Shown here in pieces: positions 1,187 through 50,723 of a stretch of DNA of 64,000 nt. A model generated the notes under the pieces. It saw only the letters and a program-made list of their open reading frames with translations, searched no databases and was not told the DNA's origin. Numbering within the stretch: position 1 is the first letter of the stretch; every line of letters starts with the position of its first letter. The translations under genes were made by a program, and so were the position numbers. The stretch is from Pseudobdellovibrionaceae bacterium (lineage in GTDB: Bacteria; Bdellovibrionota; Bdellovibrionia; Bdellovibrionales; Bdellovibrionaceae): positions 310,001 to 374,000 of the forward strand of contig JAHBUS010000003.1 in the NCBI GenBank assembly GCA_019637955.1. The letters run 5' to 3'.

Positions 1187-1555
1187 TGGTGCTTGCTCCT
1201 GATTGGAGTCCTGCGGCCTCCTGGTCGCTCACACCATCTCAACAGTTCCGCGGCTCCTGCCGCTGCACCTATGTGTCTCGGATAGACCTCGACTCTCGTC
1301 AAAGTGGATCGGGGGTTGGGATTGGAACGCGCTCCTGCGCGGGGGAGTGGGGAGCGGGGAGCGGGGAGCGGAGCTTGCCTCCTGGCTGCTCGCGTGCCGC
1401 TCGCGGTCGTCAACCTCCGCGTTGACAGCTCCAGGCCTCCGGCCTTGCGCCTACATGTCCACGGGTACGTGGACGCCTCCGGCACTGCACCTACTTGCCT
1501 CCCTTTTGCTCGGCGCTTACATGCCCGCGAGTACGCGGGCGGGAACCCGGCCTGC
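1187..1555 (+). repeat. Hairpin-rich dispersed repeat, cluster R1
   Basis: This block starts at the stop codon of the coupling ATPase. It holds two full hairpin pairs, at about 1240-1296 and 1424-1472, and a degenerate third. Each pair has the linker CAACAGTTCC or TTGACAGCTCC, a short hairpin (e.g. AGGCC-TCC-GGCCT), the linker CCTAYRT, then a second hairpin (GTCCACG-GGTA-CGTGGAC). A larger stem (GCGGAGCTTG with CAACCTCCGC, one mismatch) encloses the conserved CCTCCTGG and CGGTCGT boxes. A GGGGAGCG microrepeat lies at about 1344-1371. Open reading frames through the block are not conserved. Confidence 0.8.
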
Positions 1556-1567
1556 GGCCGGATAAGG

Positions 1568-1592
1568 AGAGGCTAACGCCTCTTTTTATTTT
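1568..1592 (+). terminator. Rho-independent terminator
   Basis: A 6-bp stem, AGAGGC with GCCTCT around a TAAC loop, is followed directly by TTTTATTTT. It would end transcripts that leave the coupling-ATPase gene and cross R1. The stretch 1593-1740 has no gene that I can support; it contains a decayed hairpin that resembles the repeat family near 1660-1705. Confidence 0.75.
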
Positions 1593-1740
1593 GATCGAGA
1601 CTGTCATGGTTTGCATTTGGGCTTTGCTGATCAGGGCCTCGCGCCAATCACCTTCACTCCAGGCCTTCGGCCCTCCGTTACGGCGCTTGTCACGAGTCCC
1701 TGAAGGTCATCAAAACCCAGCAAACCACGCCAGTCTCTCA

Positions 1741-1790
1741 AATTTTCCCCCCGCCCACTTCGTGGGGGCGACCGGGCGGGGGGAAAATAT
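1741..1790. terminator. Strong bidirectional hairpin terminator
   Basis: An about 15-bp inverted repeat (AATTTTCCCCCCGCCC with its complement at 1774-1788) encloses a smaller CAC-TTCG-GTG hairpin. T-tracts stand on one side and A-tracts on the other, so it can work in both directions. It insulates the brnTA pair from upstream transcription. Confidence 0.7.
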
Positions 1791-1806
1791 TTAGAACACA
1801 AAGAAA

Positions 1807-1835
1807 TTTACAATGTACGTACATTGTCATATAAT
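1807..1835 (+). promoter_or_regulatory. brnTA promoter with palindromic operator
   Basis: TTTACA (1807-1812) and TATAAT (1830-1835) are spaced by exactly 17 bp. A perfect 18-bp palindrome, ACAATGTACGTACATTGT (1810-1827), fills the spacer. BrnA antitoxins are known to repress their own operons through such sites, so this is the likely operator. A start about 7 bp after the -10 would leave only a very short leader before the TTG at 1849 and would cut into the GAGGAGG ribosome site, so either the message is nearly leaderless or a second promoter exists upstream. Confidence 0.65.
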
Positions 1836-1848
1836 TGAGGAGGCTATT

Positions 1849-2127
1849 TTGGAATTTGAATGGGACGAAAGAAAGTCAGTGCGCAATTTTGCGAAGCACA
1901 GGGTGAGATTCGAGGAGGCGATGACGGTTTTCGCAGATCCCAATTACCTCGAGTTTTACGATGACCCGAGTAGCGAGTCCGAAGATCGGTTCATCAGGAT
2001 TGGATTGTCTGCTGTTCCGCGGACGCTCGTAGTCGTCTACTGTGCGAAGACCGATGATAAGATTCGGATTATCTCTGCGCGTAAAGCCACGATCGCAGAA
2101 AGGAAAGTTTATGAAGAAAGAATATGA
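1849..2127 (+). CDS. brnT: BrnT-family toxin (type II toxin-antitoxin)
   Basis: A protein of about 92 residues with the BrnT/DUF497 pattern: an N-terminal FEWDERK, the NFAKHRVRFEEA helix, FADPN, and a C-terminal ISARKATIAERKVYEE. BrnT toxins have an RNase-like fold and inhibit translation. The TTG at 1849 is chosen because GAGGAGG stands 5 nt upstream and it gives the usual short N-terminus before FEWD; the ATG at 1813 lies inside the operator palindrome. The end overlaps brnA by 17 nt, the normal toxin-first order. Its position between a conjugation gene and a second antitoxin-like pair fits mobile DNA. Confidence 0.88.
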   Translation: MEFEWDERKSVRNFAKHRVRFEEAMTVFADPNYLEFYDDPSSESEDRFIRIGLSAVPRTLVVVYCAKTDDKIRIISARKATIAERKVYEERI

Positions 2128-2338
2128 TCTGAAGAAAATGCGTGCGCGTAAAGGTCCAGCAAGGGTGTACCCGGAAGCTAAGAAGGCCACGATCACGATG
2201 AGGATTGACGCTATCACCCTTGGTGACCTGAAAACTGAGGCTGAACGCTTAGGAATCCCTTACCAAACACTTGCTCAGAGCATTTTGCATCGATTCGTCA
2301 CGGGTGAGCTGGTCGACAAGAAAAGCCGCGCAGGCTGA
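2111..2338 (+). CDS. brnA: BrnA-family antitoxin (ribbon-helix-helix)
   Basis: A protein of 75 residues starting at ATG 2111, with AGGAAAG just upstream inside brnT. The N-terminus KKEYDLKKMRARKGP is typical of BrnA. The segment ATITMRIDAITLGDLKTEAERLGIPYQTLAQSILHR matches the ribbon-helix-helix DNA-binding domain, with a beta strand and two helices. BrnA neutralises BrnT and represses the operon, most likely at the 18-bp palindrome at 1810-1827. It is clearly the partner of the overlapping upstream gene. Confidence 0.88.
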   Translation: MKKEYDLKKMRARKGPARVYPEAKKATITMRIDAITLGDLKTEAERLGIPYQTLAQSILHRFVTGELVDKKSRAG

Positions 2339-2352
2339 AATCGAGGTTTTAC

Positions 2353-2685
2353 ATGAAGGCTAAACGAAACACGCCATTAACGAATTCAAAAGAAATTTCA
2401 GAAGCTCTTGGCCTCTCGAGTCCAGGCGACCAGTCGCTTGTTGATCTCAAGGCACAGATTTCAGCTCTAGCAACGAGAGCTGTAAAAAAATCAGGTTTAA
2501 GCTTGGATGATCTCGTTACGGTGTCCGGCGTTCCACGATCGAAGGTCACCGCCATTCGTAATGGAGCTCTTGCTGGCATCAGCTTTGAGCACTTCTGGCG
2601 AGTGCTCTCGGCGACGGGATCTAAGGTGAGCTTTAGGTTGGGGAAGATTCCCAGTCGCACAAAATTAAATCGAGGCCACGAATGA
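2353..2685 (+). CDS. XRE-type helix-turn-helix regulator
   Basis: A 110-residue protein with a central helix-turn-helix (about 50-85: SGLSLDDLVTVSGVPRSK followed by VTAIRNGALAGISFEHFWRVL). The N-terminal NSKEISEALGLS segment is common in small XRE antitoxin-like proteins. Its stop overlaps the start of the HicB-like gene by 4 nt (ATGA), so the two are translated together and probably work as a pair. No obvious toxin accompanies them: the partner is itself HicB-like. It probably represses this operon, which begins 14 nt after brnA and may share its promoter. Confidence 0.7.
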   Translation: MKAKRNTPLTNSKEISEALGLSSPGDQSLVDLKAQISALATRAVKKSGLSLDDLVTVSGVPRSKVTAIRNGALAGISFEHFWRVLSATGSKVSFRLGKIPSRTKLNRGHE

Positions 2686-3119
2686 AGTACCACTTTCAAG
2701 TTCACAACACCAAAGATGGGTACTGGGCTGAGTGCTTGGAGCTACCGGGCTGCCGGAGTCAAGGAGACGATCTCGAGGAGCTAAAAGTCAACCTTCGCGA
2801 AGCGCTTAATTTGTATCTCTCTGAAGAATCGCACTCTCAACTTCAATTTGCTGAGCCGCTCAAGTCCAAACAAGGGCGAGACATCATTGAGATCGAGGTT
2901 AGTCCTGAGGTGGAGCTTGCGATGAGGGCTCGCCGAGATCGGCTCAAGACGCCCGAGCAGAAAACTTTTGCGGGAATGCCGGTCAATTGGGACTGGAAGA
3001 ATTGGCACAAAGGGATGTGGAATCCCGAAGATGACACTCTTTTTCCGCCGAAGCGGGTGGGGATTGGGTGGACGGTGAATCTTCATGCGGTGCTGAAGAA
3101 GGCGAGAATAGTGAAGTAA
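2682..3119 (+). CDS. HicB-like protein with C-terminal DUF5808-like segment
   Basis: Residues 1-55 (YHFQVH, GYWAECLELPGCRSQGD, LEELKVNLREALNLYLSEE) match the HicB antitoxin/partial RNase H fold. A linker (DIIEIEVSPEVELAM) follows. The C-terminal 40 residues (WKNWHKGMWNPEDDTLFPPKR then VGIGWTVNLHAVL) resemble the DUF5808 segment, which is usually found in membrane or envelope proteins. No HicA toxin is adjacent. Translation is coupled to the XRE gene by ATGA. The HicB part is confident; the C-terminal assignment is from memory of the pattern and is less sure. Confidence 0.7.
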   Translation: MKYHFQVHNTKDGYWAECLELPGCRSQGDDLEELKVNLREALNLYLSEESHSQLQFAEPLKSKQGRDIIEIEVSPEVELAMRARRDRLKTPEQKTFAGMPVNWDWKNWHKGMWNPEDDTLFPPKRVGIGWTVNLHAVLKKARIVK

Positions 3120-3121
3120 GG

Positions 3122-3345
3122 GTGTGCGGAGCTTGCCTCCTGGTGGAGTCCTGGCGGCATCCTGGTCGCTCGGGGACTGCGGGATCTGCTCCTGATTGCT
3201 CGTCGACTGACTCGCTGGTCGCAGCTCCCGCGTAGACAGCTTCTTGTTCTCCGGACAATCGCTTACTTGTCCACGATTACGTGGACGCCTCAACAGTTCC
3301 GCGGCTCCTGCCGCTGCACCTATGTGCCTCGGGTGTACCTCGGCT
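3122..3345 (+). repeat. Hairpin-rich dispersed repeat, cluster R2
   Basis: This cluster begins 3 bp after the HicB-like stop. It carries CCTCCTGG/TGGTCGC boxes with enclosing stems, then two hairpin pairs: TAGACAGCTTC...GTCCACG-ATTA-CGTGGAC (second stem at 3269-3286), and CAACAGTTCCGCGGC...TGCACCTATGTGCC ending at 3345. It has the same plus-strand orientation as all other clusters. No gene is supported between 3346 and 3436. Confidence 0.8.
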
Positions 3346-3436
3346 AACAGTCCTTCGGTTCGTTCGAATAAAAAGATGGAGTATCTGGGTGGGGAGCGAT
3401 TCGCGCAGATGAACGAATTGCTCCGGCAAAAAAAAT

Positions 3437-4975
3437 CTATTCGCCTGGCTCCTCAGGATTGGGCTCTTCAAGCTCGAGTGTGGCGATCGACGGCAAGCTT
3501 TTCCCTAGGATTCCCTGTAGGTCTCCATAAAGAGAGCCTTTAAGTGCAAGGAGCTGATTGAGCTGTTGCTCTCGACTGGCCCACATTCTGGAGAATGCGC
3601 GTTTTTCCTTTTGTAGATCAAGAATCAGGTTAGAAACTGTAGAAATCTCTGCTTCTAGGCTTTGTTTAAACTTTGTGCCTGTCAAATACTTGAAAACATT
3701 TTCTTTCTGATCGGCTGGGATCTGGTTTGTGATGCGGGCCTGAAACACATGCAGTATTTGTTCTCGAAGCATCTGAGCAAGTGCTTTTGCTAAGGCTGGC
3801 TGAGCGATCCAGACGCCATCAGTCGTACCTAATTGGCCGTGATTTTTCGGGATCACAGAGGAAACGATAGCAGCTAATTCGGCGGAGAGCTCGCGTTGAT
3901 CTTCTTTCAGCTTCACAACCCAATCGTCGCTCCAATTTTTTGTTTGCTTGAATTCCCAAACGATGGTGCCAGCATGCTTTCCGGAGTGCGATTTCACTCG
4001 GTGAATTAAATCAGCCCCGCGTACCCCTTTCCCAACGGGTTCGAATTCGTCATTAGGAAACATCCTCGCTAGTTCCTCTTCCAAGCGAAGTTCCAATGCT
4101 TCGCCTTGCGTTTGTTGAGAGCCTTGGGTAGCTTTGAGTCTTGCGTCGTCTAGTGCGCGTTGAAGAGTTGCCATCTTCAGATTCTGTTCATCGATTATCT
4201 TAGCTGATTCGGTTTGAGTTCGCTGCCTCACCTCTTCAGCAATTCGATCCCTCTCTTCATCCAACTTTCGTTGAAATTCCAGTTCCTGGGTCTGTTTTTG
4301 TTCCTCGAGAGATACCTTCAATCTCCTGAACTCCAGTTCGTTTTTTTGTGCCTCTTGCGACTTGAGCTTTTCTGCGGCAAGACGCTCCTCAAGATGTTTC
4401 TGGTCAACGATGAATTTTTCGCGAATACTCTCAGTGAGGTCTTTCTCTAAATTAGTTTTCAAGATTGCCTTTTCATTTTCGAAAGCTAGAAAATTCGCCT
4501 GGTTCGCCTCGTGAAGTTGTTTTACTTTTAATGCGTGATCCTGCTCCTGCGTAAGTAGTCTCTTTGAAACTTCAAGCTCAAGTTTTTGATCATTTTTGTC
4601 CTGCATTTCTTGGAGTGCCAATTTTGTATTCGTGAGCTCAATTTCTAGCCTCAACGCATTTGCTGCCTGACTTTTCTGTTGCAATATCTGCTTCTGCAAA
4701 TCAGCTTTTTCAATCGCAAAAAGTGATTGGTATTCCTGAGATAGCTCTAATCTCAGCTTTTCCCTAAGTTCCTGACTCTCTCGAGCAGAGGATTCACGAA
4801 GGCTAGTGATTTGTTCATCTTTACTAGAAAGACTATCTTTTAAAAGTTTTTCCTTCTGTTCGAAATCCTCACGCAACTTCTCGCGCAAATCACTTTCGAT
4901 GCTCCCTTTCAGGGCGCTTGATAGGTCAAATACGTGATTGCATTTAGGGCAAGTCACATCTTTAGAATCTTTCAT
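3437..4975 (-). CDS. DUF2130 family protein with long coiled coil
   Basis: A 512-residue protein. Residues 9-12 form CPKC, half of a zinc-ribbon-like start. Residues of about 25-290 are a long charged coiled coil. The C-terminal third contains GKGVRGADLIHRVKSHSGKHAGTIVWEFKQTKNWSDDWV, the core of DUF2130. The pattern ADLI...IVWEFKQ resembles a PD-(D/E)xK nuclease site (D...ExK), so a nucleic-acid role is possible but unproven. The start at 4975 is chosen because an AGGAG stands 7 nt upstream, rather than the longer open frame to 5005. It is monocistronic and convergent with the toxin-antitoxin region. Confidence 0.75.
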   Translation of the reverse strand: MKDSKDVTCPKCNHVFDLSSALKGSIESDLREKLREDFEQKEKLLKDSLSSKDEQITSLRESSARESQELREKLRLELSQEYQSLFAIEKADLQKQILQQKSQAANALRLEIELTNTKLALQEMQDKNDQKLELEVSKRLLTQEQDHALKVKQLHEANQANFLAFENEKAILKTNLEKDLTESIREKFIVDQKHLEERLAAEKLKSQEAQKNELEFRRLKVSLEEQKQTQELEFQRKLDEERDRIAEEVRQRTQTESAKIIDEQNLKMATLQRALDDARLKATQGSQQTQGEALELRLEEELARMFPNDEFEPVGKGVRGADLIHRVKSHSGKHAGTIVWEFKQTKNWSDDWVVKLKEDQRELSAELAAIVSSVIPKNHGQLGTTDGVWIAQPALAKALAQMLREQILHVFQARITNQIPADQKENVFKYLTGTKFKQSLEAEISTVSNLILDLQKEKRAFSRMWASREQQLNQLLALKGSLYGDLQGILGKSLPSIATLELEEPNPEEPGE

Positions 4976-5081
4976 GGGTTTTCTCCTAAAATGGTCAATG
5001 GGCAATCCCCACGGGCATTTTGATAAGACAAAGAGCGCTAATTGTGCGCAATGGCTTTGCTAAGTATAAGTAAGTTAATTT

Positions 5082-6287: not shown

Positions 6288-6317
6288 CATTTTGATAGAA
6301 GTCGGCAAGGCAGCTAA

Positions 6318-6593: not shown

Positions 6594-6611
6594 GTGCCTC
6601 CAGTGACAACA

Positions 6612-6998: not shown

Positions 6999-7090
6999 GC
7001 ACTAGGCTTGCACAAATTGCTTATTTTGGAAACAAATTTGCGGTTGCCTTGATCCAGAAGCTTGCCGAAACATCGATCGACAGATCGAAA

Positions 7091-7242
7091 GCGCTCCTGC
7101 GCGGGGAGTAGCGGCTCCTGCCGCGGGGTCGGAGACGGTGCTCGCTCCTGATGGGAGCTCTACGATCTCCCGGTCGCTCGCACCGCCTCAACAGTTCCGC
7201 GCCTCTGGCGCTGCACCTATGTGCCTCGGGCATACCTCGGCT
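7091..7242 (+). repeat. Hairpin-rich dispersed repeat, cluster R3
   Basis: One large hairpin unit (GGTGC...GCACC enclosing GGGAG...CTCCC between CTCCTGAT and CGGTCGCT boxes), then one hairpin pair, CAACAGTTCC-GCGCC-TCT-GGCGC-TGCACCTATGT plus GCCTCGG...CCTCGGC. It is nearly identical to the first half of R4, which suggests a recent copying event. It sits 26 bp from the 3' end of the minus-strand hydrolase gene. Confidence 0.8.
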
Positions 7243-7267
7243 AGCGTGTGGGAGTATTTGACGATCG

Positions 7268-8087: not shown

Positions 8088-8490
8088 GCGCTCATGCGCG
8101 GGGAGAGAGGCGGCTCCTGTCGCTGGATTCGGAAGGCGCTGCTCGCTCCTGATGGGGAGCTCTGCGATCTCCCGGTCGCTCGCACCGCCTCAACAGTTCC
8201 GCGCCTCTGGCGCTGCACCTATGTGCCTCGGGCGTACCTCGGCGGATTGCGGGATCTGCTTCAGATGGCTCGTCGACTGACTCGCTGGTCGGGGCTTTGC
8301 GTGGATGGCCTCTGGAGACTCGGACGATGTCCTCATCGGTCGTCCATCCACGCTTTGACAGTTCCGCGCCTCCGGCGCTGCACCTACATGTGCGCGAGTA
8401 CGGGCACGCGTAGACAGCTCTTTGCCCTCCGGGCAACCGCTTACTTGCCGAGGGTTACCTCGGCGCTTACATGTACACGGGGTGTGGACG
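8088..8490 (+). repeat. Hairpin-rich dispersed repeat, cluster R4
   Basis: The most regular large cluster. It contains an R3-like unit, then GGGATCTGC-type and GCGTGGATGG-type large hairpins; the latter has a perfect 10-bp outer stem (8299-8308 with 8344-8353). Two hairpin pairs follow, the last with GCCGAGG-GTTA-CCTCGGC (8447-8464). It ends with a partial unit at about 8490. Open frames that cross it are repeat translations, not genes. Confidence 0.82.
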
Positions 8491-8574: not shown

Positions 8575-8652
8575 ATGGCTAAGAAAGCTGCAAAAAAAGC
8601 GACGAAGAAAGCTGCTAAGAAGACCACTAAAAAAGCGACTAAGAAGAAGTAG
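8575..8652 (+). CDS. 25-residue Lys/Ala/Thr-rich basic peptide
   Basis: A GAGGAG ribosome site stands 8 nt before the ATG, and the coding region ends 8 bp before a strong terminator, so this is a real small gene. The product is a repeat of (A/T)(A/T)KK units from end to end, with 13 Lys in 25 residues. This composition matches the basic tails of histone H1-like and AlgP-like DNA-binding proteins, so binding to nucleic acid is the likely role. A partial second copy of its 3' end lies at 8810-8848, beyond the repeat R5. Confidence 0.7.
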   Translation: MAKKAAKKATKKAAKKTTKKATKKK

Positions 8653-8660
8653 TTTGAATT

Positions 8661-8694: not shown

Positions 8695-8700
8695 GGTATC

Positions 8701-8811
8701 TGGCGGAGTTTGCCTCATGGCTCACGCTTTGCGCTCGCTGATCGTCAACCTCCGCGTTGACAGTTCCAGGCCTCTGGCCTTCCGCTTACATCCCTCAGCT
8801 GCGTTCGGGAA
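8701..8811 (+). repeat. Hairpin-rich dispersed repeat, cluster R5
   Basis: A single unit: outer stem GGCGGAGTTTG with CAACCTCCGC (one mismatch), CCTCATGG box, inner hairpin around GCGCTCG, then TTGACAGTTCC-AGGCC-TCT-GGCCT-TCCGCTTACAT and a weak last hairpin. It lies exactly between the Lys-rich gene plus terminator and a second copy of that gene's 3' end. Confidence 0.78.
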
Positions 8812-8848
8812 GAAGACCACTAAAAAAGCGGCGACTAAGAAGAAGTAG
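8810..8848 (+). pseudogene. Duplicated 3' end of the Lys-rich peptide gene
   Basis: Twelve codons encoding KKTTKKAATKKK plus stop repeat the end of the gene at 8575-8652. There is one in-frame extra codon (GCG), and similarity continues through the stop into the terminator region. There is no start codon or ribosome site, so it is a remnant. It begins directly where R5 ends. Confidence 0.7.
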
Positions 8849-8938
8849 TTCGAAGCGAGGGATCGAGGCGGCACCGCTCAACCCGGTTCTTCCAGCTTTC
8901 TATGGCATCACACGCTTCCGATGCCTCAATGTCTTAAG

Positions 8939-14713: not shown

Positions 14714-16288
14714 TTGAGATCGTTTAGGCCTAACCTTGAAAAGTTCATCCAATTGATTCGGAGTTTCAATCAGTTCGATCTTATGGCTTTAGCTATGACT
14801 GAAAGCTGGCGCACGGATATTAATCCGAAAAAGAGAACCAGAGACGACACTATGATCGCGGCTTTTGGGCCCCGAGTCTTCGCCTTTTCAAGTGCCGCCG
14901 GCACTGTTCATAATAGAAAGTCGGCTACGACACGTGATGTTTTGGTTTGCGCACACCGCTACCTGGAGCTTCCGGAGCAAACTCTCCAAGAAGAGCCTAG
15001 TCCCGAAGTTAGAGAAGAAATCGCAATGTACGCATCCGAGTCGAGGTATTTTCAAAAATATCACGTCCCAAAAGTGGAGACTGATAATTCTCTCAGCTCC
15101 ATAAGTGCATTTTTATTGAGGTCGATAGAGTCTCAACACTCGCACCAAGGCGGAACGCCTCATTCAATTGTTCGTTCATTTGCAATTTTAAAGAATTTCA
15201 TTGCACGTCTTTCTGCAGCAGATCGTAATCTTGTCGATTCGATATTAGGTTTGGATCAGAAATTGTTTTTTCGATCCGCTTTAATTACTTGGTTGTACAT
15301 GGTGCAGAAAGAGACTCGAGGATTCTTGTATCTTGAAAACCTCGAGTCCTTTGCAGCACCAATAATGGGATCGGACGTTTCCGCTTTTGGAGTGTTTATA
15401 TCGAGAATGTCATGCTCAAGAGATGATGCCACCGAATGGTTGGTTCAGTGTCGATCTGCAAAAGAGGAGCTAAAGAAGTATTTCCCGCTGTATTTTTATA
15501 ATACTCCTCTTCTAAATCTGGGGAATTATGGTTTTGATGACCGAATTGAAAATCGAGATTTAAGTAGAACGATGATGTGTCCTTCGCCTGGCATTTATTT
15601 AAAGTCTGCCACCGAGAAGTGCTACGAGCTTGTTTCAAGAAATTCTGACCGGTTTCAAGTGAGAAATCCGCTTGTTGTATTTGGTGAAGCTTTTGAAGAC
15701 TACGTTCACGAGGCGTTGAACTTCAAATACGGCCATGCCTTCGTGGAAAAGGTTGAGCCAGTGCAGGGACAGAAGAGAGCGGACTTTATCGTCGAGTCCT
15801 CCGAATTTATACTTGTTGTGGAGCTTAAAAAGTCACTTATAGGATTGGGAGATCGGCTTGAGGCTTCTGGGGTTCCCCTGCTTAAGTTTTATGAACGCAC
15901 TGGAGGTGCGTTTGATCAAATCGGTGAAACGATTTCCGTGCGCAAGCTTGATGAGCGAGGAAAACCAGTAATCGCCATTGTCGTTTCTGAAGCGAACAAT
16001 TACACTGCAGCAGCAAGGTTTATCACTTTTTTTGTAAATTCAGGGATTCGTCGTAAGATGAACCTACATCTTCTGGATGTAATGACCATTGAGTTGTTTG
16101 AGCGGGTATTTTTACACCGTGAACCTGACGAAATATTGAGAGATTTTATATCCAGATGGGCCGATTTTGACTCAAATCCAAACGGAATATTCGCATATTC
16201 AACAGCCAAGAGCGAAATGCGTCCTGGGGAAGAGTTTGCGGGACATCTCGAGGCCCACTTGGAGGAGCTCCTGCCTACTGGAGACTAG
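14714..16288 (+). CDS. Protein with C-terminal PD-(D/E)xK nuclease-like domain
   Basis: Up to 524 residues, starting at TTG 14714; no clear ribosome site is seen and a Met a little further in could be the true start. The N-terminal about 330 residues are unassigned and helical. At about 345-372 the pattern KVEPVQGQKRADFIV followed by FILVVELKKSLI gives the D...ExK signature of restriction-type nucleases, with a preceding ...GEAFEDYVHEAL helix carrying a Glu. The low G+C and its neighbours (ATPase, nuclease, membrane protein) fit an accessory or defence-type locus. The nuclease prediction rests on motif only. Confidence 0.55.
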   Translation: MRSFRPNLEKFIQLIRSFNQFDLMALAMTESWRTDINPKKRTRDDTMIAAFGPRVFAFSSAAGTVHNRKSATTRDVLVCAHRYLELPEQTLQEEPSPEVREEIAMYASESRYFQKYHVPKVETDNSLSSISAFLLRSIESQHSHQGGTPHSIVRSFAILKNFIARLSAADRNLVDSILGLDQKLFFRSALITWLYMVQKETRGFLYLENLESFAAPIMGSDVSAFGVFISRMSCSRDDATEWLVQCRSAKEELKKYFPLYFYNTPLLNLGNYGFDDRIENRDLSRTMMCPSPGIYLKSATEKCYELVSRNSDRFQVRNPLVVFGEAFEDYVHEALNFKYGHAFVEKVEPVQGQKRADFIVESSEFILVVELKKSLIGLGDRLEASGVPLLKFYERTGGAFDQIGETISVRKLDERGKPVIAIVVSEANNYTAAARFITFFVNSGIRRKMNLHLLDVMTIELFERVFLHREPDEILRDFISRWADFDSNPNGIFAYSTAKSEMRPGEEFAGHLEAHLEELLPTGD

Positions 16289-16792
16289 ATTGAAGCATAT
16301 GCTCCAGTTAGCTTAGAAATCACCATCATCTCCACATCACTCGCACTCGTATTTGCGACCTAAGCGATCGGTATGCTCCTAAAACTTCACATCCGCTGAA
16401 TCCAATTTCCTCGAAATCAAAAGCATCTCGGCATCTGTATCGCCTTTATTCTCAACAAAGTGCAGGTCTGCCGTTCCGGCGTGAAAGCAGGAATCCTTCA
16501 TTGATTTAACCGGGGAGATGGGAGCTGCGGCTTCCTCCTGATTGTTCGTCTTGCAGACTCACTGGTCGTCAGCCGCTGCCTTCACAGCTCCAGCTCCTCC
16601 GGGCTTGCGCTTAGAGCTCGCGATTACGCGAGCCTTAGAAACTCCTCTATTTTCTTTTTCAGGTCAACGATGAAGGCAGTGGTGGAAAGGCGCGGGCGCC
16701 TAGAAATCAGACTTCTCAACGTCCCTCGAGGCTGGATATTTACTGGACCTTTGGTCCCGTGCTTGGGGCTGTCTACCGTGCTAAGGTGAGTT
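16289..16792. other. Long intergenic region containing repeat R6
   Basis: This 504-bp stretch has no gene that I can support. Its centre (16520-16633) is a member of the dispersed repeat family, listed separately. The remainder shows no clear promoter, RNA or coding signal, apart from a TTTTCTTTTT run after R6. Confidence 0.5.
16520..16633 (+). repeat. Hairpin-rich dispersed repeat, cluster R6
   Basis: A single unit: outer stem GCGGCT...AGCCGC with TCCTCCTGATT and ACTGGTCGT boxes, then TTCACAGCTCC, a degenerate first hairpin (AGCTCCTCCGGGCT), GCGCTTAGA and a perfect last hairpin GCTCGCG-ATTA-CGCGAGC (16616-16633). It is in the same orientation as the others. Confidence 0.75.
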
Positions 16793-18624: not shown

Positions 18625-18708
18625 AAAACCCAATCCGCGTTTCAGAAACGGTTAAAATACATACTATCGTGCTTGCTCATTATCGTGCTTATTTGCAACG
18701 CTTTCTGC

Positions 18709-18945
18709 ATGGCAGGAAAAAGCGTTAGCGGCGAAGAATCAAAGTATCTGAAGAAAGTCGGAGCCAAAATCCGATCCTTAAGAACAAGCAAAGGCTGGAC
18801 TCTCGAGCAGGTCGAGGAGCATGGCTGGAACAACTGGCAGCATCTCCAAAAGATCGAGTCGGGAAAGAATATCACTCTCGTAACGCTGAAGCGAGTTGCT
18901 GCGCTTTATAAGACGACCCCGGGTAAGATTCTCGAAGATCTTTAG
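18709..18945 (+). CDS. XRE-family helix-turn-helix regulator
   Basis: A 78-residue DNA-binding protein. The helix-turn-helix spans about residues 12-65 (KKVGAKIRSLRTSKGWTLEQ, NWQHLQKIESGKNITLVTLKRVAALY). The start is placed at ATG 18709, where the family normally begins; an open frame continues to 18673. A direct repeat TATCGTGCTT occurs twice upstream (18665-18674 and 18681-18690) and may be its own operator. Repeat R7 follows 3 bp after the stop codon. Confidence 0.7.
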   Translation: MAGKSVSGEESKYLKKVGAKIRSLRTSKGWTLEQVEEHGWNNWQHLQKIESGKNITLVTLKRVAALYKTTPGKILEDL

Positions 18946-18947
18946 GG

Positions 18948-19154
18948 ACTGCGGGGCTTGCTCCTGTGGGAGTCCTGGCGGCCTCCTGGACAGCTTCGGG
19001 CCTTTGCCCTGCGCCTACCTCTGGCGAGTACGCCAATGCTCGCTCAGCGCGGGATCTGCTCTTGATGGCTCGTCACTGACTCGCTGGTCGCAGCTCCCGC
19101 GTAGACAGCTTACGTCCTCCGGACGATCGCTTACTTGTCCATGATTACATGGAC
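18948..19154 (+). repeat. Hairpin-rich dispersed repeat, cluster R7
   Basis: Two units: one ending in ACAGCTTC-GGGCC-TTT-GCCCT-GCGCCTACCT-CTGGCG-AGTA-CGCCA, and one with the GGGATCTGC...GCAGCTCCC stem followed by TAGACAGCTTACGTCCTCCGGACG and GTCCATG-ATTA-CATGGAC, ending at 19154. It begins 3 bp after the XRE gene stop. Confidence 0.8.
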
Positions 19155-19184
19155 TTTGGATTCGTAAGTGGCGAGAATTGAAGA

Positions 19185-20404: not shown

Positions 20405-20519
20405 ATGTAAGTCTACGGGTAATCCCGTGGGTCTAAGCGAAAGCCGGGACGGCTGAAGCTGTGAAGGCGGGAAGGGTAAAAGCGAGGCCGTAGGCCGAGC
20501 CATCAGCTCCCTTCGCGCC
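20405..20519 (+). ncRNA. Candidate structured leader RNA (riboswitch-like)
   Basis: A dense set of helices: ACGGG-TAAT-CCCGT (about 20415-20428), then GCGAAAGCCGGGACGGCTGAAG, a long stem GGCGgGAAGGG paired with CCCTTCgCGCC (about 20466-20519) enclosing GGCC-GTA-GGCC and GAGCCATCAG. Runs such as AAAGCCGGGACGG, CTGTGAA, GGGAAGG and GAGCCA recall the cobalamin riboswitch core, but the closing stem does not match that class well and no B12 gene is near. It precedes a 20-codon ORF and the gene at 20614. The class is unresolved. Confidence 0.35.
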
Positions 20520-20613: not shown

Positions 20614-20862
20614 GTGGGAGCGTTTAAGCAAGGCGAGATCGACGAAGTTGATTCGGATTATATTGATCCTAACCAACTGAAGTTGATACCGGATGAAGGG
20701 GCGGAGTCTCGTTCGATGGCTCCGACTGCGTCCTCGCAGTCACTCGACTCCGCCTTGACAGCTTTGGACGTCTCGTCCTTCGCCTACATGCCTCGGAGTA
20801 CCTCGGCGAAGCATATTCGGTATATTGAGGAGTTTCTCTCGAAGAGATTGAAAGTCGGGTAG
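20614..20862 (+). CDS. Small protein with a repeat unit inserted in frame
   Basis: An 82-residue frame with a strong AGGAGG site 5 nt before its GTG. Residues 1-29 are acidic and unlike the repeat (GAFKQGEIDEVDSDYIDPNQ); residues of about 30-65 are the translation of repeat R8; the last 17 (KHIRYIEEFLSKRLKVG) are again ordinary sequence. A similar C-terminus (EEFLAKWLTVD plus stop) is found after cluster R9. The original protein was probably about 45 residues. Whether the enlarged product is made is unknown. Confidence 0.5.
   Translation: MGAFKQGEIDEVDSDYIDPNQLKLIPDEGAESRSMAPTASSQSLDSALTALDVSSFAYMPRSTSAKHIRYIEEFLSKRLKVG
20699..20808 (+). repeat. Hairpin-rich dispersed repeat, unit R8, inside an ORF
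   Basis: A full unit with outer stem GGCGGAGTC...GACTCCGCC (about 20700-20754), a perfect inner hairpin GACTGCG-TCCT-CGCAGTC, then TTGACAGCTTT, GGACG-TCTC-GTCC, TTCGCCTACAT and GCCTCGG-AGTA-CCTCGGC. It contains no stop codon in the frame of the gene at 20614-20862. Confidence 0.8.
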
Positions 20863-21182
20863 CGGAGGTTGCCTCCTGGGGGCTCCGCTGCGCGTTCGCG
20901 GTCGTTCCGGATTGCGGGATCTGCTCCTGGCTGCTCGTCGCTGACTCGCTGGTCGCAGCTTTGCGTGGATGGCCTCTGGAGACTCGGACGATGTCCTCAT
21001 CGGTCGTCCATCCACGCCTTGACAGTTCCGCGCCTCTGGCGCTGCACCTACATGTGCGCGAGTACGCGCACGCGTTGACAGCTCTGTGCCCTCCGGGCGC
21101 TCGCTTACTTGTCCATGAGTACATGGACGGTTGGCAGTTCTGGGCCTCTGGCCCTCCGCTTACATGTCTCGCGTCGCTCGAC
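20862..21182 (+). repeat. Hairpin-rich dispersed repeat, cluster R9
   Basis: Starts at the stop codon of the 20614 gene. It has the large units GCGGAGGTTG..., GGGATCTGC... and GCGTGGATGG...CCATCCACGC, then three hairpin pairs in tandem. The clearest are GTGCGCG-AGTA-CGCGCAC (21054-21071) and GTCCATG-AGTA-CATGGAC (21111-21128). It shares a long, nearly identical central stretch with R4 and R13. Confidence 0.82.
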
Positions 21183-21218
21183 GAGGAGTTTTTGGCGAAG
21201 TGGCTGACGGTTGATTAA
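21183..21218 (+). pseudogene. Duplicated C-terminal tail of the 20614 gene
   Basis: The segment encodes EEFLAKWLTVD plus a stop, aligned with EEFLSKRLKVG plus stop at 20829-20862; about 25 of 36 bases match. It has no start of its own and directly follows repeat cluster R9. It looks like a diverged copy of the gene's 3' end. Confidence 0.5.
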
Positions 21219-25067: not shown

Positions 25068-25378
25068 GCGGAGGCGAGGGAGAATTGGGTGCCGGAACGA
25101 GGAGGGCGGGATTTGCTAGGTAGCTCTCGCGATGCGTTCGCGGGCGCAAATCCCGCCTTAACAGTTCCGGGTCCACGGACCCTTCACCTATATGCCGAGA
25201 GTACTCGGCGCGGAGGCGAGGGGGAATTGGGTGCAGGGAAGGGGGGCGCGGGACTTGCAATTCGGGATCGGCGGGTGCGCTCGGATTTGCGTGCCTGCGG
25301 CACGCGGGTCGCTTACCCGCCGTTTCACAGCTCCAGCGGCACGCCGCCTGCGCCTTGATGTCCCGAGTACGGGACTCT
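25068..25378 (+). repeat. Hairpin-rich dispersed repeat, cluster R10, with flanking direct repeats
   Basis: Two units. The first has an 11-bp perfect outer stem, GGCGGGATTTG (25105-25115) with CAAATCCCGCC (25147-25157), then TAACAGTTCC-GGGTCC-ACG-GACCC and GCCGAG-AGTA-CTCGGC. It is flanked by two 25-bp direct repeats differing at one base (25068-25092 and 25210-25234). The second unit (GGCGGGT...ACCCGCC) ends with GTCCCG-AGTA-CGGGAC at 25378, overlapping the stop of the next gene. Confidence 0.8.
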
Positions 25379-28505: not shown

Positions 28506-28610
28506 CTACAGAATCAGCACGTTACAGCCTGCCATGCGGAGCAAGATCGTAAGTCCAATGGCGATAAGGATGCTAGCGAAGAATGCGCGCCAGCCGAGGC
28601 CGATAATCAT
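28506..28610 (-). CDS. 34-residue single-span membrane micro-protein, copy 1
   Basis: A 34-codon ORF encoding a hydrophobic helix: start MIIGLGWRAFFASILIAIG, then a short LTILLRMAGC and NVLIL end. A second copy lies at 42329-42433. Of 34 codons ten differ, nine of them synonymously and one L/F, and similarity stops at the ORF boundaries, so protein-level selection is very likely. No good ribosome site is visible, and an in-frame TAG lies 4 codons upstream of the ATG. It is antisense to and 17 bp beyond the end of the Fic gene. Confidence 0.65.
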   Translation of the reverse strand: MIIGLGWRAFFASILIAIGLTILLRMAGCNVLIL

Positions 28611-28633
28611 GAGGGCAAGCTAGTTTCAAGGAT

Positions 28634-29823: not shown

Positions 29824-30354
29824 GCGGAGCTAGCCTCATGGTGGCTCCGCTAGGCGTTCGCGGTCGTCTAGCTCCGCCTAGACAGCTCCGGTTCGTCCCG
29901 ACCTGCGCTTACTTGTCCCTCAGCACATGGAACGTTGACAGTTCCGCGATTCTGGCGCTGCACCTACATGCCTCACTGGCGTTCGGCGGTGGAAGTGCCT
30001 GGGGCGGATGCCGGCCAACTCTCCTAACAGATCGAATGCGGAGTTTGCTGCGAGGATTGCCTCATGGAGACTCGAAGGACGTCCTCGTCGGTCTTGCGCG
30101 TAGTTCGCTCCTTCTTGGAGTCCTGACGGCCTCTTGGTCGGCTTCGGGGCTTTGCCCTGCGCCTTCATCTGGCGTTTACGTCAGTGGTTGTTCACTCCGC
30201 TTTCACAGCTATGAGCTTCCGGCTCGCCGCTTAGATGTCCACGATTACATGGACTCTTTGACAGCTTCGTGCCTCCGGCACGGCGCCTACATCTGGCGAG
30301 TACGCCAGCACTGGTGGCTCCGGGCTGCCGGTTACGGTCCAGGATTACCTGGAC
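29824..30354 (+). repeat. Hairpin-rich dispersed repeat, cluster R11 (largest)
   Basis: About 530 bp with five or six units. The first has a perfect 10-bp outer stem, GCGGAGCTAG (29824-29833) with CTAGCTCCGC (29868-29877). Later hairpin pairs include ATGTCCACG-ATTA-CATGGAC, CTGGCG-AGTA-CGCCAG and the final GTCCAGG-ATTA-CCTGGAC (30337-30354). Several units are degenerate, so this cluster may be older than R4, R9 and R13. Confidence 0.8.
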
Positions 30355-42328: not shown

Positions 42329-42433
42329 TCACAAAATCAAAACATTACATCCTGCCATGCGAAGCAAGATCGTAAGTCCGATGGCGATAAGGATGCTGGC
42401 GAAGAATGCGCGCCAGCCGAAGCCGATGATCAT
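42329..42433 (-). CDS. 34-residue single-span membrane micro-protein, copy 2
   Basis: A second copy of the ORF at 28506-28610, with MIIGFGWRAFFASILIAIG and the same LTILLRMAGC-NVLIL end. The only residue change is F for L at position 5; the stop is TGA instead of TAG. It stands 16 bp beyond the end of a plus-strand gene, in the same antisense arrangement as copy 1. Unlike copy 1 the frame stays open upstream to 42538, but only the 34-codon part is conserved. There is no clear ribosome site. Confidence 0.65.
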   Translation of the reverse strand: MIIGFGWRAFFASILIAIGLTILLRMAGCNVLIL

Positions 42434-42478
42434 GGGAAGAGTTGTAGCGGGATCTTTAGTCTCGTGCAAGTGGGGGAT

Positions 42479-42801
42479 GCGGGAGCTGTCTTCCGGCTTC
42501 GCGCTTTGCGCTCTCAAGTCGCCTGCTCCCGCGTTCACAGCTCTGGGCCGCTGGCCCGACGCTTAGATGTCTCGGGATACCTCGACACTGATCGAAAGCG
42601 CTCCGCGATGGTGCGGGTGGGGAGCGGAGTTTGCGTCGAGGATTGCCTCCTGGAGACTCGGACGATGTCTTCATCGTCGTCAATCCTCGCTTTGACAGTT
42701 CCGCGCCTCTGGCGCTGCACCGACATGTGCGCGAGTACGCGCACGCGTTGACAGCTTTGTGCCTTCCGGGCACCCGCTTAGAAGTCCAAGAATACGTGGA
42801 C
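42479..42801 (+). repeat. Hairpin-rich dispersed repeat, cluster R12
   Basis: Begins with GCGGGAGC...GCTCCCGC, then the unit with outer stem GAGGATTG (42638-42645) and CAATCCTC (42681-42688), a base-paired replacement of the GTGGATGG/CCATCCAC stem in R4 and R9. Three hairpin pairs follow; the last ends GTCCAAG-AATA-CGTGGAC at 42801, abutting the stop of the lipoprotein gene. Confidence 0.82.
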
Positions 42802-43143
42802 TTAGTGGTGCCCGCCGATTTTTTCGACGGTCATGTCGGGAAGCAAGATAAGGCCGTCTAAAGGTGTAGCCAGCGATGACTCCTCGCCGAGGATCTTAAG
42901 TATTTTGGCTTTGCCGAACTCTTCTTTTTTGCACGTTCGATTGGCCCGTCCTTTGACTCGAATTGAAGTGTCACGGCACGTGACTCGAACAATTCGAACG
43001 GTTTCACCTTCTGAGACCTCGAGAGAGCCAATGCCCACCTTTGTTCCTCTGGCATATTGGGAACTGATCGGATCTTCTATTTTGTGCTGATGCGCGCACG
43101 CCGAGAAAAAAAGGAGAGAGAATATTAGAAAAATCTCTTTCAT
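42802..43143 (-). CDS. Lipoprotein with His-rich C-terminus
   Basis: A 113-residue protein with lipobox FSAC near residue 16, followed by AHQHK. The mature domain (VGIGSLEVSEGETVRIVRVTCRD, KAKILKILGEES, DMTVEKIGGHH) is shared with the gene at 52904-53236, which ends KIHPHHP. Histidines at both ends of the mature chain could bind metal. It is the last gene of the metal-resistance operon, 3 bp after the repressor gene. Confidence 0.68.
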   Translation of the reverse strand: MKEIFLIFSLLFFSACAHQHKIEDPISSQYARGTKVGIGSLEVSEGETVRIVRVTCRDTSIRVKGRANRTCKKEEFGKAKILKILGEESSLATPLDGLILLPDMTVEKIGGHH

Positions 43144-46048: not shown

Positions 46049-46060
46049 TTTATACCTCTC

Positions 46061-46507: not shown

Positions 46508-49500
46508 TTCCATTCTCCCTTTTCATGTTGTTGTTCTCGGTTCAGGTAATTCTGAACCGCTTGTTTTCCAAATTTTAAAAAGACGGTTGGGGTGACGATC
46601 AAATCGAGCAAGGTCGAAGAGATCAGGCCGCCCACAATCACAACCGCGACAGGGTAAAGAATTTCTTTGCCAGGCTCTCCTTGGGAGAGGAGCAAAGGAA
46701 TCAACGCCAAGGCTGCTGTTGAGGCCGTCATAAGAACAGGAACTAAGCGCTCAAGTGAACCTCGTACGACCATTTGACGGTCAAACCTCTCGCCCTCTTC
46801 TTTCATCAGATGCAGATAATGACTGATCAAAAGAATACCGTTACGTGTGGCTATACCGCAAAGGGTGATGAACGCGACCAGCGTTGCGACCGAAAGCGTC
46901 CTCTCGGTGATGTAGATTGCGATGATACTCCCGATGAGCGCGAGTGGAACGTTGAGCATGACTTGAAAGCTCAATATCCATGACTTGAAGTGCACATACA
47001 GGACGAGCAGAATTCCGAGCATCGAGAGAATCCCGAGCCACAAAATGCGCTGAGTAGCCGTTTGCTGGCTCTCGAATTGACCACCCAACTTGATAAAGTA
47101 ACCTTCGGGCAGCTGGACTTTTTCAGAAATTCGTTTCTGGATTTCGCCCACCACGCTTCCGAGATCGCGTCCGTGGGTGTTGGCCGAGATCACGATGCGT
47201 CTTTGCATGTCTTCACGGTTAATCATGTTGGGACCCGTGCCGGGATAGACACTAGAGACTTCCCCAAGGCGCACGCCCTGTCCCGTTGGCATGAATTTCA
47301 CAAGCGTTTGCTCGATCTTCTCGGGCGTCTCGCGTGAGGAGTCGTCTAGACGCATGAACACCTCGTGCATGCGCTGATTCTCGAGAAACTGCGTGACAGT
47401 CTCACCATTAAGCGCAATTTCAAGATTCTCTGCCAGGGTTCCGCTACGAATCCCGTACTTTGCGCTCATTTCGCGGTCGATGGCGATTTTGAGCTGAGGT
47501 ATGAGAACCAAAGGCTCCGTCTGAAGATCGACGACGCCATCGATGTCTTTCATCACATCTTGGATCTGACCACCAAAACGGCGGAGTTCGCTCAAATCAT
47601 ACCCAAAGACTTTCACTGCGATTTGGGCGCGAACACCCGAAAGCAGGTGATCCAGCCGATGGCTAATGGGCTGACCAAGATTCACGTAGACATCGCCAGT
47701 TTTCTCGATTCGCTCACGAATCTCTTGAAGGACGATTTCTCGTTTTCGTCCCTCAGGCTTAAAGTCGACGTCGATTTCGTGCCAATGAACGCCTTCGGCA
47801 TGCTCGTCCATTTCAGCTCGGCCCGTTCTGCGTACAGTCGATTTGACTTCGGGAACCGAAAGAATCGCTTCTTCAATTTTTTTACCGAGGGCGTCTGAGG
47901 CGGGGAGCGAAATTCCAGGCGCGCCCGCAACGCCAATGGTCGCAGTACCTTCATTAAACTCCGGCAAAAAGTTTCGACCCATGAGAGGCAAAAGCATCAG
48001 GCTCAGGACAAGGATCACAGCGGCCCCAGCAAGAACGCTTTTGGGGTGAGGCAGGGTCCAATCAAGTACTTTATGAGCTATGGCCTTGAGGCCGCTCACG
48101 AGCCTACCTTCTTTCTCCTCATGAACTGCTTTAGATTGCGGAAGCAGGTAGGAGCAAAGGATGGGTGTCACGGTCAAAGAAACGAACAGCGAGGCAATGA
48201 TCGAGATGATATACGCAATCCCGAGTGGCACGAAAAGCCGACCCTCAATGCCTCCTAGAGCAAACAGCGGGAGGAAGACCAAGACCACGATAATCGTTGA
48301 AAGAACGATCGAGTTTCGAACTTCGCTCGAAGCTTCGAAGATGACTCGCATGAAGCCTTTGGAGTTTCCTTTTACTCTGTTTTCGCGCAGGCGCCTAAAC
48401 ACGTTTTCAACATCCACGATGGCATCATCGACAAGCTCGCCAATGGCAATCGCAAGGCCGCCAAGAGTCATCGTGTTGATCCCAAGTCCGAAGACGTGGA
48501 ACACAATCACCGTGACCAGAAGGCTCATGGGGATGGCGACAAGTGTGATGGCTGTTGTGCGCCAGTTCATGAGGAATAAGAAAAGAATGATGGCAACCAT
48601 GATAATGCCATCCCGAAGCGCTTCTTCGACGTTACCGACGGCAGCCTCAATGAAGTGTGACTGCTTAAAGAGGTCCGTCTCGAGATGAACTCCAGCCGGA
48701 AGCCCTTTCTTCATCTGTTCGATTTCATTTTCAACCGCTTTTGTGAGATCAATCGTGCTTGCGCTAGGCTGTTTTTGAATGGTCAGGATGACCGAGTGCT
48801 TGGCGTTAATACTTCCTTCGCCGCGTTTAGCTTTGGCTCCGATACGGACTTCCGCCACATCCTTAACGAGAACGGGGTTCCCGAGGTGAAGACCGACGAG
48901 CGAATTCTCGATGTCCTCAAGGCTTGCCACGCGGCCGAGCGGGCGAATCAGGTACTCTTTGTCCGAGACATTGATAAAGCCGCCGGTCGTGTTCTCGCTG
49001 ATTTCCGAAAGCGCGCGTTTAAGGTCCTCCAAAGAGACTGCTCTCTTTTGCAACTTTTCGCTCGAGACGAGAATCTGGTACTGTTTGACTTCGCCGCCCA
49101 TAACGACGACCTGGCTAATTCCCGGGATTGTCATAAGCCTGGGGCGAAGAGTCCAGTCTGCAAGGGTGCGAAGATCCATAGGCGTGACGCTCGCATCGGG
49201 ACTCGTGACACCGATAAACTGAATCTCGCCCATGATTGATGTGACGGGGCCCATGATTGGCTGAAGGCCCGGAGGGAGCTTGCCCTCAAGAAGCTGTAAG
49301 CGCTCGGCAATAAGCTGGCGGTTTCTAAAGATTTCGGTGCCCCAATCAAACTCGACATAAATAATCGAGATCCCGATACCGCTACTGGATCGCAGCCGCA
49401 AAACTCCAGGTGTTCCATTGAGCGTAGATTCAATGGGAAGAGTGACAAGACTTTCCACCTCTTCAGGCGCAAGTCCGTGTGCTTCGGTGAGAACCGTGAC

Positions 49501-49638
49501 AGTGGGACGGTTAAGGTTAGGAAAGACATCTACGGGTAGGCCCGGTAAGAGCCAGGCTCCGTACACGCAAATAGCAAGGGCCAAAAGACCCACGATCAGA
49601 CGCCTTTTCAATGAAAGGCGAATCATTAAATCGAGCAT
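46504..49638 (-). CDS. Heavy-metal RND efflux pump (CusA/CzcA family)
   Basis: A 1044-residue protein, the full length of the family, with ATG 49638 and GAGGAATT upstream. Heavy-metal type signatures are seen: VDVFPNLNRPTVTVLTEAHGL, RSSSGIGISIIYVEFDWGT, and helix IV with GLAIAIGELVDDAIVDVENVFRR (Asp/Glu of the proton path). It should drive metal ions from the periplasm or cytoplasm out through the TolC-type channel at 44756. A usual adaptor (CusB/CzcB) gene is missing from the operon. Confidence 0.9.
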   Translation of the reverse strand: MLDLMIRLSLKRRLIVGLLALAICVYGAWLLPGLPVDVFPNLNRPTVTVLTEAHGLAPEEVESLVTLPIESTLNGTPGVLRLRSSSGIGISIIYVEFDWGTEIFRNRQLIAERLQLLEGKLPPGLQPIMGPVTSIMGEIQFIGVTSPDASVTPMDLRTLADWTLRPRLMTIPGISQVVVMGGEVKQYQILVSSEKLQKRAVSLEDLKRALSEISENTTGGFINVSDKEYLIRPLGRVASLEDIENSLVGLHLGNPVLVKDVAEVRIGAKAKRGEGSINAKHSVILTIQKQPSASTIDLTKAVENEIEQMKKGLPAGVHLETDLFKQSHFIEAAVGNVEEALRDGIIMVAIILFLFLMNWRTTAITLVAIPMSLLVTVIVFHVFGLGINTMTLGGLAIAIGELVDDAIVDVENVFRRLRENRVKGNSKGFMRVIFEASSEVRNSIVLSTIIVVLVFLPLFALGGIEGRLFVPLGIAYIISIIASLFVSLTVTPILCSYLLPQSKAVHEEKEGRLVSGLKAIAHKVLDWTLPHPKSVLAGAAVILVLSLMLLPLMGRNFLPEFNEGTATIGVAGAPGISLPASDALGKKIEEAILSVPEVKSTVRRTGRAEMDEHAEGVHWHEIDVDFKPEGRKREIVLQEIRERIEKTGDVYVNLGQPISHRLDHLLSGVRAQIAVKVFGYDLSELRRFGGQIQDVMKDIDGVVDLQTEPLVLIPQLKIAIDREMSAKYGIRSGTLAENLEIALNGETVTQFLENQRMHEVFMRLDDSSRETPEKIEQTLVKFMPTGQGVRLGEVSSVYPGTGPNMINREDMQRRIVISANTHGRDLGSVVGEIQKRISEKVQLPEGYFIKLGGQFESQQTATQRILWLGILSMLGILLVLYVHFKSWILSFQVMLNVPLALIGSIIAIYITERTLSVATLVAFITLCGIATRNGILLISHYLHLMKEEGERFDRQMVVRGSLERLVPVLMTASTAALALIPLLLSQGEPGKEILYPVAVVIVGGLISSTLLDLIVTPTVFLKFGKQAVQNYLNREQQHEKGEWK

Positions 49639-49734
49639 AATTCCTCACGCTCATGCGAGCGCCGCAAACTGAAGTCGTAACCATGACAAGCGGAAAGCCG
49701 CTAGCGCTGGTTGCCATCGAAAATGTGATTGGAA

Positions 49735-50112
49735 TTAAGCTGAAATCGGAGGTCGGAAAATAGATCCAAGGGCGCGGTCCAAGACAGGATCGGCGCTCAA
49801 CGTGTAGGTCATCTTAGTTGTTTTGTCGTTCAAATAGAAAAAGCCCGAAGAGTCAGGCAGCGCCAGAATCGTTGTCACGGCAATTTGAATCATATGAGTG
49901 TGCGAGTCATGGTGCTCACCAGCAGGTAGGGTCTGGCTAGTCTCATTGTTAGACGCTTGCTCTTCATCATGGTGGTGATGATCAGCGCTCTCAGATTCAT
50001 CATGGGAGTGGGTATGCGAGTAAGAAATCTCAATGGTGCCCGCGGGCGTTTGGCTCGCAAGAGACGCGGTACCCGAGAGGGTCATCGCGAAAAGGCTGAA
50101 AAGAATTACCAT
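49735..50112 (-). CDS. His-rich secreted protein heading the metal operon
   Basis: A 125-residue protein from ATG 50112 (a GTG two codons upstream is possible). The N-terminus is a signal peptide; the mature part has two His/Asp clusters (HTHSHDESESADHHHHDEE and EHHDSHTHM) and a C-terminal beta part. This composition is that of periplasmic metal-binding proteins found with Czc/Cnr pumps. It lies 97 bp upstream of the pump gene on the same strand. Confidence 0.68.
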   Translation of the reverse strand: MVILFSLFAMTLSGTASLASQTPAGTIEISYSHTHSHDESESADHHHHDEEQASNNETSQTLPAGEHHDSHTHMIQIAVTTILALPDSSGFFYLNDKTTKMTYTLSADPVLDRALGSIFRPPISA

Positions 50113-50300
50113 TGTTCTCACATCTTCATTATTTGCATGTTCAAAACTAGAAAACAAGTGGCTATCTAGGCTTGCCGCTAAAAGCCAACAAAGATCTCAC
50201 AAAGAATCATCATCTAAGGCGGTCTTGTAATGATCGAGAAATTAGAACGAAGAAAAATTTAGATCAATGGAAGTGATTGAGGGGAGTGGGGAGCGGAGTT

Positions 50301-50723
50301 CGCGGCGAGGATTGCCTAACGGAGACTCGGACGATGTCCTCATCGGTTGGCGCTCCTCGCTTTGACAGCTTCGAGCCTCCGTCTCTGCGCCTACATCTGG
50401 CGATTACGCCAGTCCTGGTTGCTCGCGCACCGCTCGCGGTCGTTCCGGATTGCGGGAGCTGCTCCTGATTGCTCGTCGCTGACTTCGCTGGTCGCAGCTT
50501 TGCGTGTATGGCCTCTGGAGACTCGGACGATGTCCTCATCGGTCGTCCATCCTCGCTTTGACAGTTCCGCGCCTCCGGCGCTGCACCTACATGTGCGCGA
50601 GTACGCGCACGCGTTGACAGCTCTGTGCCCTCCGGGCACCCGCTTACTTGTCCATGAGTACATGGACCGTTCACAGCTTTGGCGCCTCCGGGCCGCCGCT
50701 TACATGTCCACGATTACGTGGAC
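50301..50723 (+). repeat. Hairpin-rich dispersed repeat, cluster R13
   Basis: Starts with a GCGAGGATTG-type unit, then a GGGAGCTGC...GCAGC unit and the conserved GACTCGGACGATGTCC unit, nearly identical to R4 and R9. Three hairpin pairs in tandem follow: GTGCGCG-AGTA-CGCGCAC, GTCCATG-AGTA-CATGGAC and GTCCACG-ATTA-CGTGGAC (ends 50723). After it a 9-bp inverted repeat AGGAAAGCC...GGCTTTCCT (50774-50801) precedes the SRAP gene. Confidence 0.82.

Follow-up and report, generated by a model that had tools for sequence, protein, structure and literature searches.

The window analysed in this work, a stretch of 64,000 nucleotides (contig C8, positions 310001–374000, of a 3.77 Mb genome), lies entirely within an integrative conjugative element (ICE) of ~83 kb that occupies C8:~307.6–390.3 kb at tRNA-Cys. 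To the left of the window are comM and the tRNA-Cys gene (attL), and to its right a tyrosine integrase of 381 aa next to a repeat of the tRNA end, GTCACCTCCAAA (attR), which forms the att core at both ends of the ICE. Between these ends are a coupling-protein gene (VirD4) and TrbC-, TraG/VirB4- and TrbI-like genes with homologues in related genomes; the region thus carries the tRNA att site, integrase, coupling protein and T4SS genes of an ICE. Its G+C content is 48–53%, against 55–59% in nearly all sampled stretches of the host. Two proteins encoded upstream of virD4, P0001 and P0002 (L040:14083–14931 and 14924–15904), gave no Pfam match, and their relatives adjoin virD4 in other ICEs. Both contain a PD...ELEIS.K stretch that, judged from sequence, is suggestive of a PD-(D/E)XK nuclease or a relaxase. 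P0002-like proteins with 36–39% identity are encoded in hairpin-bearing regions of three related genomes (G026, G014 and G015), and those of the other regions show 22–26%. The cargo of the ICE includes three RND efflux genes, BrnT and Fic-type TA pairs, a P-type ATPase and a GIY-YIG protein.

All clusters of the hairpin repeat lie in the cargo part of the ICE (311.2–360.7 kb), the first starting immediately (0 bp) behind the virD4 stop codon, and multi-gene blocks of several kb on both strands separate them. The basic repeat measures ~110 nt overall and consists of a hairpin A (53–59 nt), a spacer of 2–4 nt and a 53-nt two-hairpin unit, ACAGYT-hp1-GCRCYTACATG-hp2 (Table 1). Hairpin A, of ~54 nt and found upstream of most two-hairpin units, is built from an outer stem of mostly 9–12 bp, a CTCCTG-type box, an inner hairpin and a GGTCG box. 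The hp1-hp2 part recurs in tandem, up to three times, with a 56-bp period. A covariance model of this two-hairpin unit (R1) returned 33 matches in the window at a threshold of E<1, of which 31 had E<2e-7, and the window holds ~34 two-hairpin units in 13–16 clusters. The initial annotation had counted about 30 hairpin pairs in 13 clusters. A repeat is present at all 13 places that it listed; the count is revised, and units at 30203, 30259 and 42693 and the minus-strand unit at 20412–20464 receive entries of their own. The architecture it described was likewise that of a real repeat, with the basic unit now redefined as hairpin A plus a tandemly repeatable hp1-hp2.

Table 1. Hairpin elements of the window and the coupling-protein gene that precedes them (positions counted from the first nucleotide of the window).
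Feature	Position	Strand	Details
virD4/traD-like coupling-protein gene, 3' part	1..1186	+	full gene C8:309903-311186; stop 1184-1186 abuts first element; Pfam TraG-D_C 3.4e-09; on full ORF T4SS-DNA_transf 2e-08
Element	1185..1294	+	A hairpin 1185-1238, hp1-hp2 unit 1240-1294
Element	1368..1540	+	A 1368-1420, unit 1423-1475, half unit 1513-1540
Cluster	3120..3345	+	0 bp after TAA stop; truncated A, A 3178-3232, units 3234-3287, 3291-3345
Element	7132..7242	+	A 7132-7189, unit 7189-7242
Element	8107..8244	+	A ~8137-8188, unit 8191-8244
Cluster	8244..8490	+	second A type 8244-8296, A 8299-8353, units 8356-8408, 8412-8465, half unit to ~8490
Element	8703..8810	+	A 8703-8755, unit 8758-8810
Element	16524..16634	+	A 16524-16579, unit 16582-16634
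Cluster	18946..19155	+	0 bp after TAG of XRE-like ORF (18673-18945); units 18988-19038, 19103-19155, A 19048-19101
Sole minus-strand unit	20412..20464	-	40 bits
Element inside ORF 20614-20862	20698..20808	+	A 20698-20756, unit 20756-20808
Cluster	20863..21183	+	0 bp after TAG of ORF 20614-20862; truncated A types, A 20963-21017, units 21020, 21076, 21132 (56-bp tandem)
Two elements	25105..25376	+	A 25105-25157 with unit 25159-25210; A 25269-25322 with unit 25325-25376
Element	29824..29988	+	A 29824-29877, units 29880-29934, 29936-29988
Cluster	30031..30354	+	degenerate A parts, units 30141-30186 (weak), 30203-30255, 30259-30310, fragment 30337-30354
Two elements	42475..42802	+	A 42475-42536 with unit 42535-42587; A 42637-42689 with units 42693-42745, 42749-42802
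Element, degenerate A	50284..50414	+	unit 50363-50414
Cluster	50447..50724	+	second A type 50447-50499, A 50502-50556, units 50559, 50615, 50671 (56-bp tandem)

The element within ORF 20614–20862 can be read in frame, the ORF itself being a putative gene at most. Several other features accompany the repeats. A short hairpin leader resembling GCGCTCCTGCGCGGGG stands ahead of four clusters (window ~1328, 7092, 8088 and 42600). A small Lys/Ala-rich histone-like protein (MAKKAAKKATKK...) is encoded at ~8575–8652, with a terminator and, beyond it, an element downstream; its coding sequence is partly repeated at ~8813–8850. A 104-bp direct repeat, 90% identical between 28508–28611 and 42331–42434, is unrelated to the hairpin units.

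The stems of the repeat change in a paired manner while loops and linkers stay constant, as the initial annotation had proposed. In the R1 seed alignment, 84.8% of pairing cells were paired compared with 65.4% in shuffles, and 52 cells showed double changes compared with 16.0. Across the 33 matches the corresponding values were 85.7% against 64.8% and 76 against an expected 22.6, with a covariation score of 0.483 against 0.172. Neither the double-change count nor the covariation score was reached by any of 500 shuffles, and the signal collapsed when the partner was shifted by 1–3 columns. The outer stem of hairpin A behaved similarly: 15 of 20 units scored at least 7, compared with 4.6% of shuffles, and 16 different sequences were found among 17 A-stem arms. 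This strong covariation supports selection on structure. Simple tandem duplication does not account for the copies, because the stems differ from cluster to cluster. Fixed linkers and loops combined with freely co-varying stems are what an enzyme or other protein that reads the structure of single-stranded DNA would select.

A search of the whole genome with R1 added three units to those of the window, all on the same contig (C8:103041, 118793 and 118835); at these two nearby loci the copies stand alone, outside the ICE. Copies beyond the window therefore exist in the source genome, and relatives carrying the family were essentially lacking among 368 other genomes of the phylum, in which the search gave two single weak matches of 25–26 bits (G035 and G263). 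Pattern scans of viral contigs and plasmids found no relatives of the repeat. The same was true of a scan of 84,980 species genomes, where nine single matches were obtained against ~11 expected by our estimate, seven of the nine in acetic acid bacteria. Rfam models gave no match in the window at the gathering score, and L082, a locus of the related genome G026, gave only chance-like matches below threshold.

Every unit in the window except that at 20412–20464 is on the plus strand, as are all three units outside the ICE, a polarity read on one contig from a single ICE and two nearby loci. Of the genes lying closest upstream of the 13 clusters, seven are co-directional and six opposite, and gene orientation is therefore not the cause of the polarity. 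Four clusters begin 0 bp after the stop codon of an open frame of at least 85 codons. GC skew is positive in 17 of the 18 host stretches sampled on contig C8, so the plus strand corresponds to the leading strand, which is equal in sequence to the lagging-strand template. The repeats of the window thus obey the same replication rule as a second family, R2, found in relatives.

In the ICEs of two related genomes (G026, and contig C1 of G014), a differently spelled three-hairpin element lies directly behind virD4. It is arranged as R2, hp1, a linker resembling CTACATATG and hp2, where R2 denotes a model of its hairpin A. The layout is shared with R1 and the sequences are not alignable. R2 is absent from the source genome and reaches up to 75 copies per genome, occurring in nearly all genomes of genus g4. 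Its outer stem reads GAAAAAGG...CCTTTTT. At three loci (L082 and L083 of G026, L080 of G015), tandem 41-bp units, TTTAGCTGGTTCAGCT..., and an insert, ACTGAAGTAGCTGGTTCAACT, lie inside R2 elements and are a further, nested hairpin family. R2-like hairpins may also occur in other deltaproteobacteria. Many intergenic repeats have been listed for the Geobacter genome (PMC2700814).

In seven complete genomes 224 of 235 R2 copies (95%) lie on the leading strand, with one pair of strand switches per chromosome, as judged from search positions and sampled stretches. Of the ORFs in the sampled stretches 57% are leading, so the bias of R2 is not inherited from genes; the binomial p of 1e-40 against that proportion treats as independent copies that are not, since orthologous sites recur between relatives. 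The strand switch coincides with a change of sign in GC skew in G009 and G004. For G011, both switch points were obtained by fitting to the R2 copies themselves, and in most stretches the sampled skew is consistent with them. Upstream genes are co-directional in 40 of 51 cases, and six mapped copies with an oppositely oriented upstream gene still follow the replication rule.

R2 copies also hug gene ends: in 29 of 52, at most 4 nt separate the start of the copy from the stop codon of a co-directional gene, a count that includes orthologous loci and hence fewer independent cases. The stop codon was considered as a part of the element and is probably outside it, because the spacing varies from 0 to 4 nt. 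Five sites were compared between G003 and the collinear G009. In G003 one of these is empty (L225), one holds an ordinary terminator (L221), one an unrelated sequence, and two hold shortened versions that keep the outer stem. No target-site duplication was seen at the single clean insertion site compared between the two genomes, and neither a fixed target nor a target-site duplication was found for the elements.

The best explanation, which we judge about evenly poised between right and wrong, is that the repeats, as non-autonomous hairpin elements, came into the lagging-strand template in the form of single-stranded DNA and that their presence at gene ends is tolerated. It starts from what was seen directly: structure, covariation, ICE context, strand polarity, the stop-codon adjacency of R2 and the presence or absence of copies between two relatives. 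Each repeat would be a structure-conserved element (hairpin A, then hp1 and hp2) living in single-stranded DNA, entering and spreading in the lagging-strand template of the replication fork, and every copy would consequently have the same polarity relative to replication. Copies would persist chiefly at gene 3' ends, often right behind the stop codon, because they are tolerated there or used as terminators. A polarity that is fixed independently of gene direction makes insertion of single-stranded DNA into the lagging-strand template its simplest account, and we infer that the polarity arises in this way. The initial annotation had allowed for structure acting as DNA or as RNA; the structure stands, and of the two the strand polarity favours DNA. 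From layout, position behind virD4 and polarity, rather than sequence homology, R1 and R2 appear to work alike, and such elements probably spread in the short time for which DNA is single-stranded as it is replicated. As part of the same explanation, and with the same balance of confidence, the R1 family would have arrived in the source genome on the ICE and remained nearly confined there. A bolder proposal, put forward only tentatively, is a separate class of miniature elements that insert solely as folded single-stranded DNA into the lagging-strand template behind stop codons, served by an enzyme unrelated to RAYT and comprising at least two sequence-unrelated families (R1 on the ICE, R2 genome-wide) with one three-hairpin design.

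The proposal of non-autonomous elements has counterpoints, as no transposase is tied to R1 or R2, and some R2 sites replace a terminator while shortened versions keep the outer stem alone. The latter observations fit selection maintaining a terminator function. Portable transcription terminators or 3'-UTR RNA elements, in which the hairpins would act as RNA at gene ends and the covariation would reflect RNA folding, are also consistent with the conserved structure, the stop-codon adjacency of R2, the T-run that closes its outer stem and the ordinary terminator that takes its place at one G003 site. Such a role is nevertheless unlikely, given that R2 orientation tracks replication (95%) better than it tracks the upstream gene (40/51), six of the 13 window clusters come after an oppositely oriented gene, the R1 hairpins have no T-run and no Rfam family was matched. 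Sites belonging to the ICE itself, either single-strand initiation or promoter hairpins on the transferred strand or attC-like sites delimiting cargo, would explain why R1 is confined to the ICE and to one strand, why an element starts directly behind virD4 in three ICEs and why TA pairs and efflux pumps lie between clusters. Yet most related ICEs have no such element behind virD4, R2 is chromosome-wide in relatives, lone R1 copies also occur outside the ICE, the cargo genes are on both strands and no integron integrase scored above cut-off, which leaves this the least probable of the readings considered.

Movement by a RAYT (Y1 HUH transposase), with the repeats forming a large REP/TIR family, would account for the single-strand polarity expected of Y1 enzymes (PMC6006769) and accords with REP termini that often supply stop codons and with REPs found in ORFs (PMC3733652). 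The initial annotation had been reminded of REP elements by a GTAG on the complementary strand; this tetranucleotide precedes hp1 in only ~9 of 29 units, GTAA, ATAG or CTAAG being present in most others. Neither does the expected gene lie close by, as the three Y1 matches of the source genome all fall outside the ICE, on contigs C1 and C13, and have no R1 copy within 1.5 kb. A search for Y1 genes in the source genome and 13 others gave a weak association with R2, a copy lying just 3' of 6 of ~59 matches, on one side only and always inverted, and the R2-rich genomes G004 and G014 had no Y1 match. Two of three closely inspected Y1 loci of relatives (L214 and L217) hold RAYT-like genes among other repeats, GGGGTATCGGTCAT, of a separate family. 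With units of ~110 nt or more and heterogeneous stems added to this, RAYT-driven spread appears quite improbable.

The spread of bacterial hairpin repeats has so far mostly been inferred from enzyme biochemistry. Across seven genomes, a replication-strand polarity of 95% resembles the imprint, at genome scale, that movement through single-stranded DNA would leave, and makes such movement testable. It also gives an easy marker for tracing replichores and past inversions in these genomes, and in the ICE a structured repeat is seen travelling with a conjugative element.

Among known systems, MITEs and other small dispersed hairpin repeats are similarly non-coding, 70–300 bp long, of inverted-repeat structure and located beside genes, but differ in that the present elements have a replication-strand polarity and no target duplication at the one clean insertion site compared. 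Integron attC sites resemble them as many structure-conserved hairpin sites facing the same way, with variable stems and often directly behind a stop codon. Unlike attC arrays, whose single-gene cassettes mostly follow the array direction, the clusters here have a two- or three-hairpin layout, are separated by multi-kb blocks of several genes on both strands, and include lone intergenic copies; the integron integrase model TIGR02249 had no match over its cut-off, and the nearby recombinases are generic phage-integrase or Xer-like proteins. IS200/IS605 transposases insert into the single-stranded lagging-strand template (PMC6006769), and their elements share subterminal hairpins and a matching polarity with the repeats, which in contrast have no coding capacity and no TnpA or TnpB nearby. 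REP/REPIN sequences with their RAYTs, and the TIR repeats of 'TIRYT' genes, are likewise short palindromic intergenic repeats, clustered and frequent at gene 3' ends, with termini that form stop codons and occasional copies inside ORFs (PMC3733652), and depend on a single-stranded DNA enzyme family that uses the lagging-strand template (PMC6006769). The repeats described here differ in their three hairpins over ~110 nt with constant linkers and variable stems, being indeed larger than a known REP as first annotated, in having no conserved GTAG/CGTC foot and no associated RAYT, and in a strict one-way polarity along replichores that the sections of the REP literature drawn on here do not report. 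REPs are the nearest known kind, although these elements depart from them in the GTAG foot, in the RAYT link and in size.
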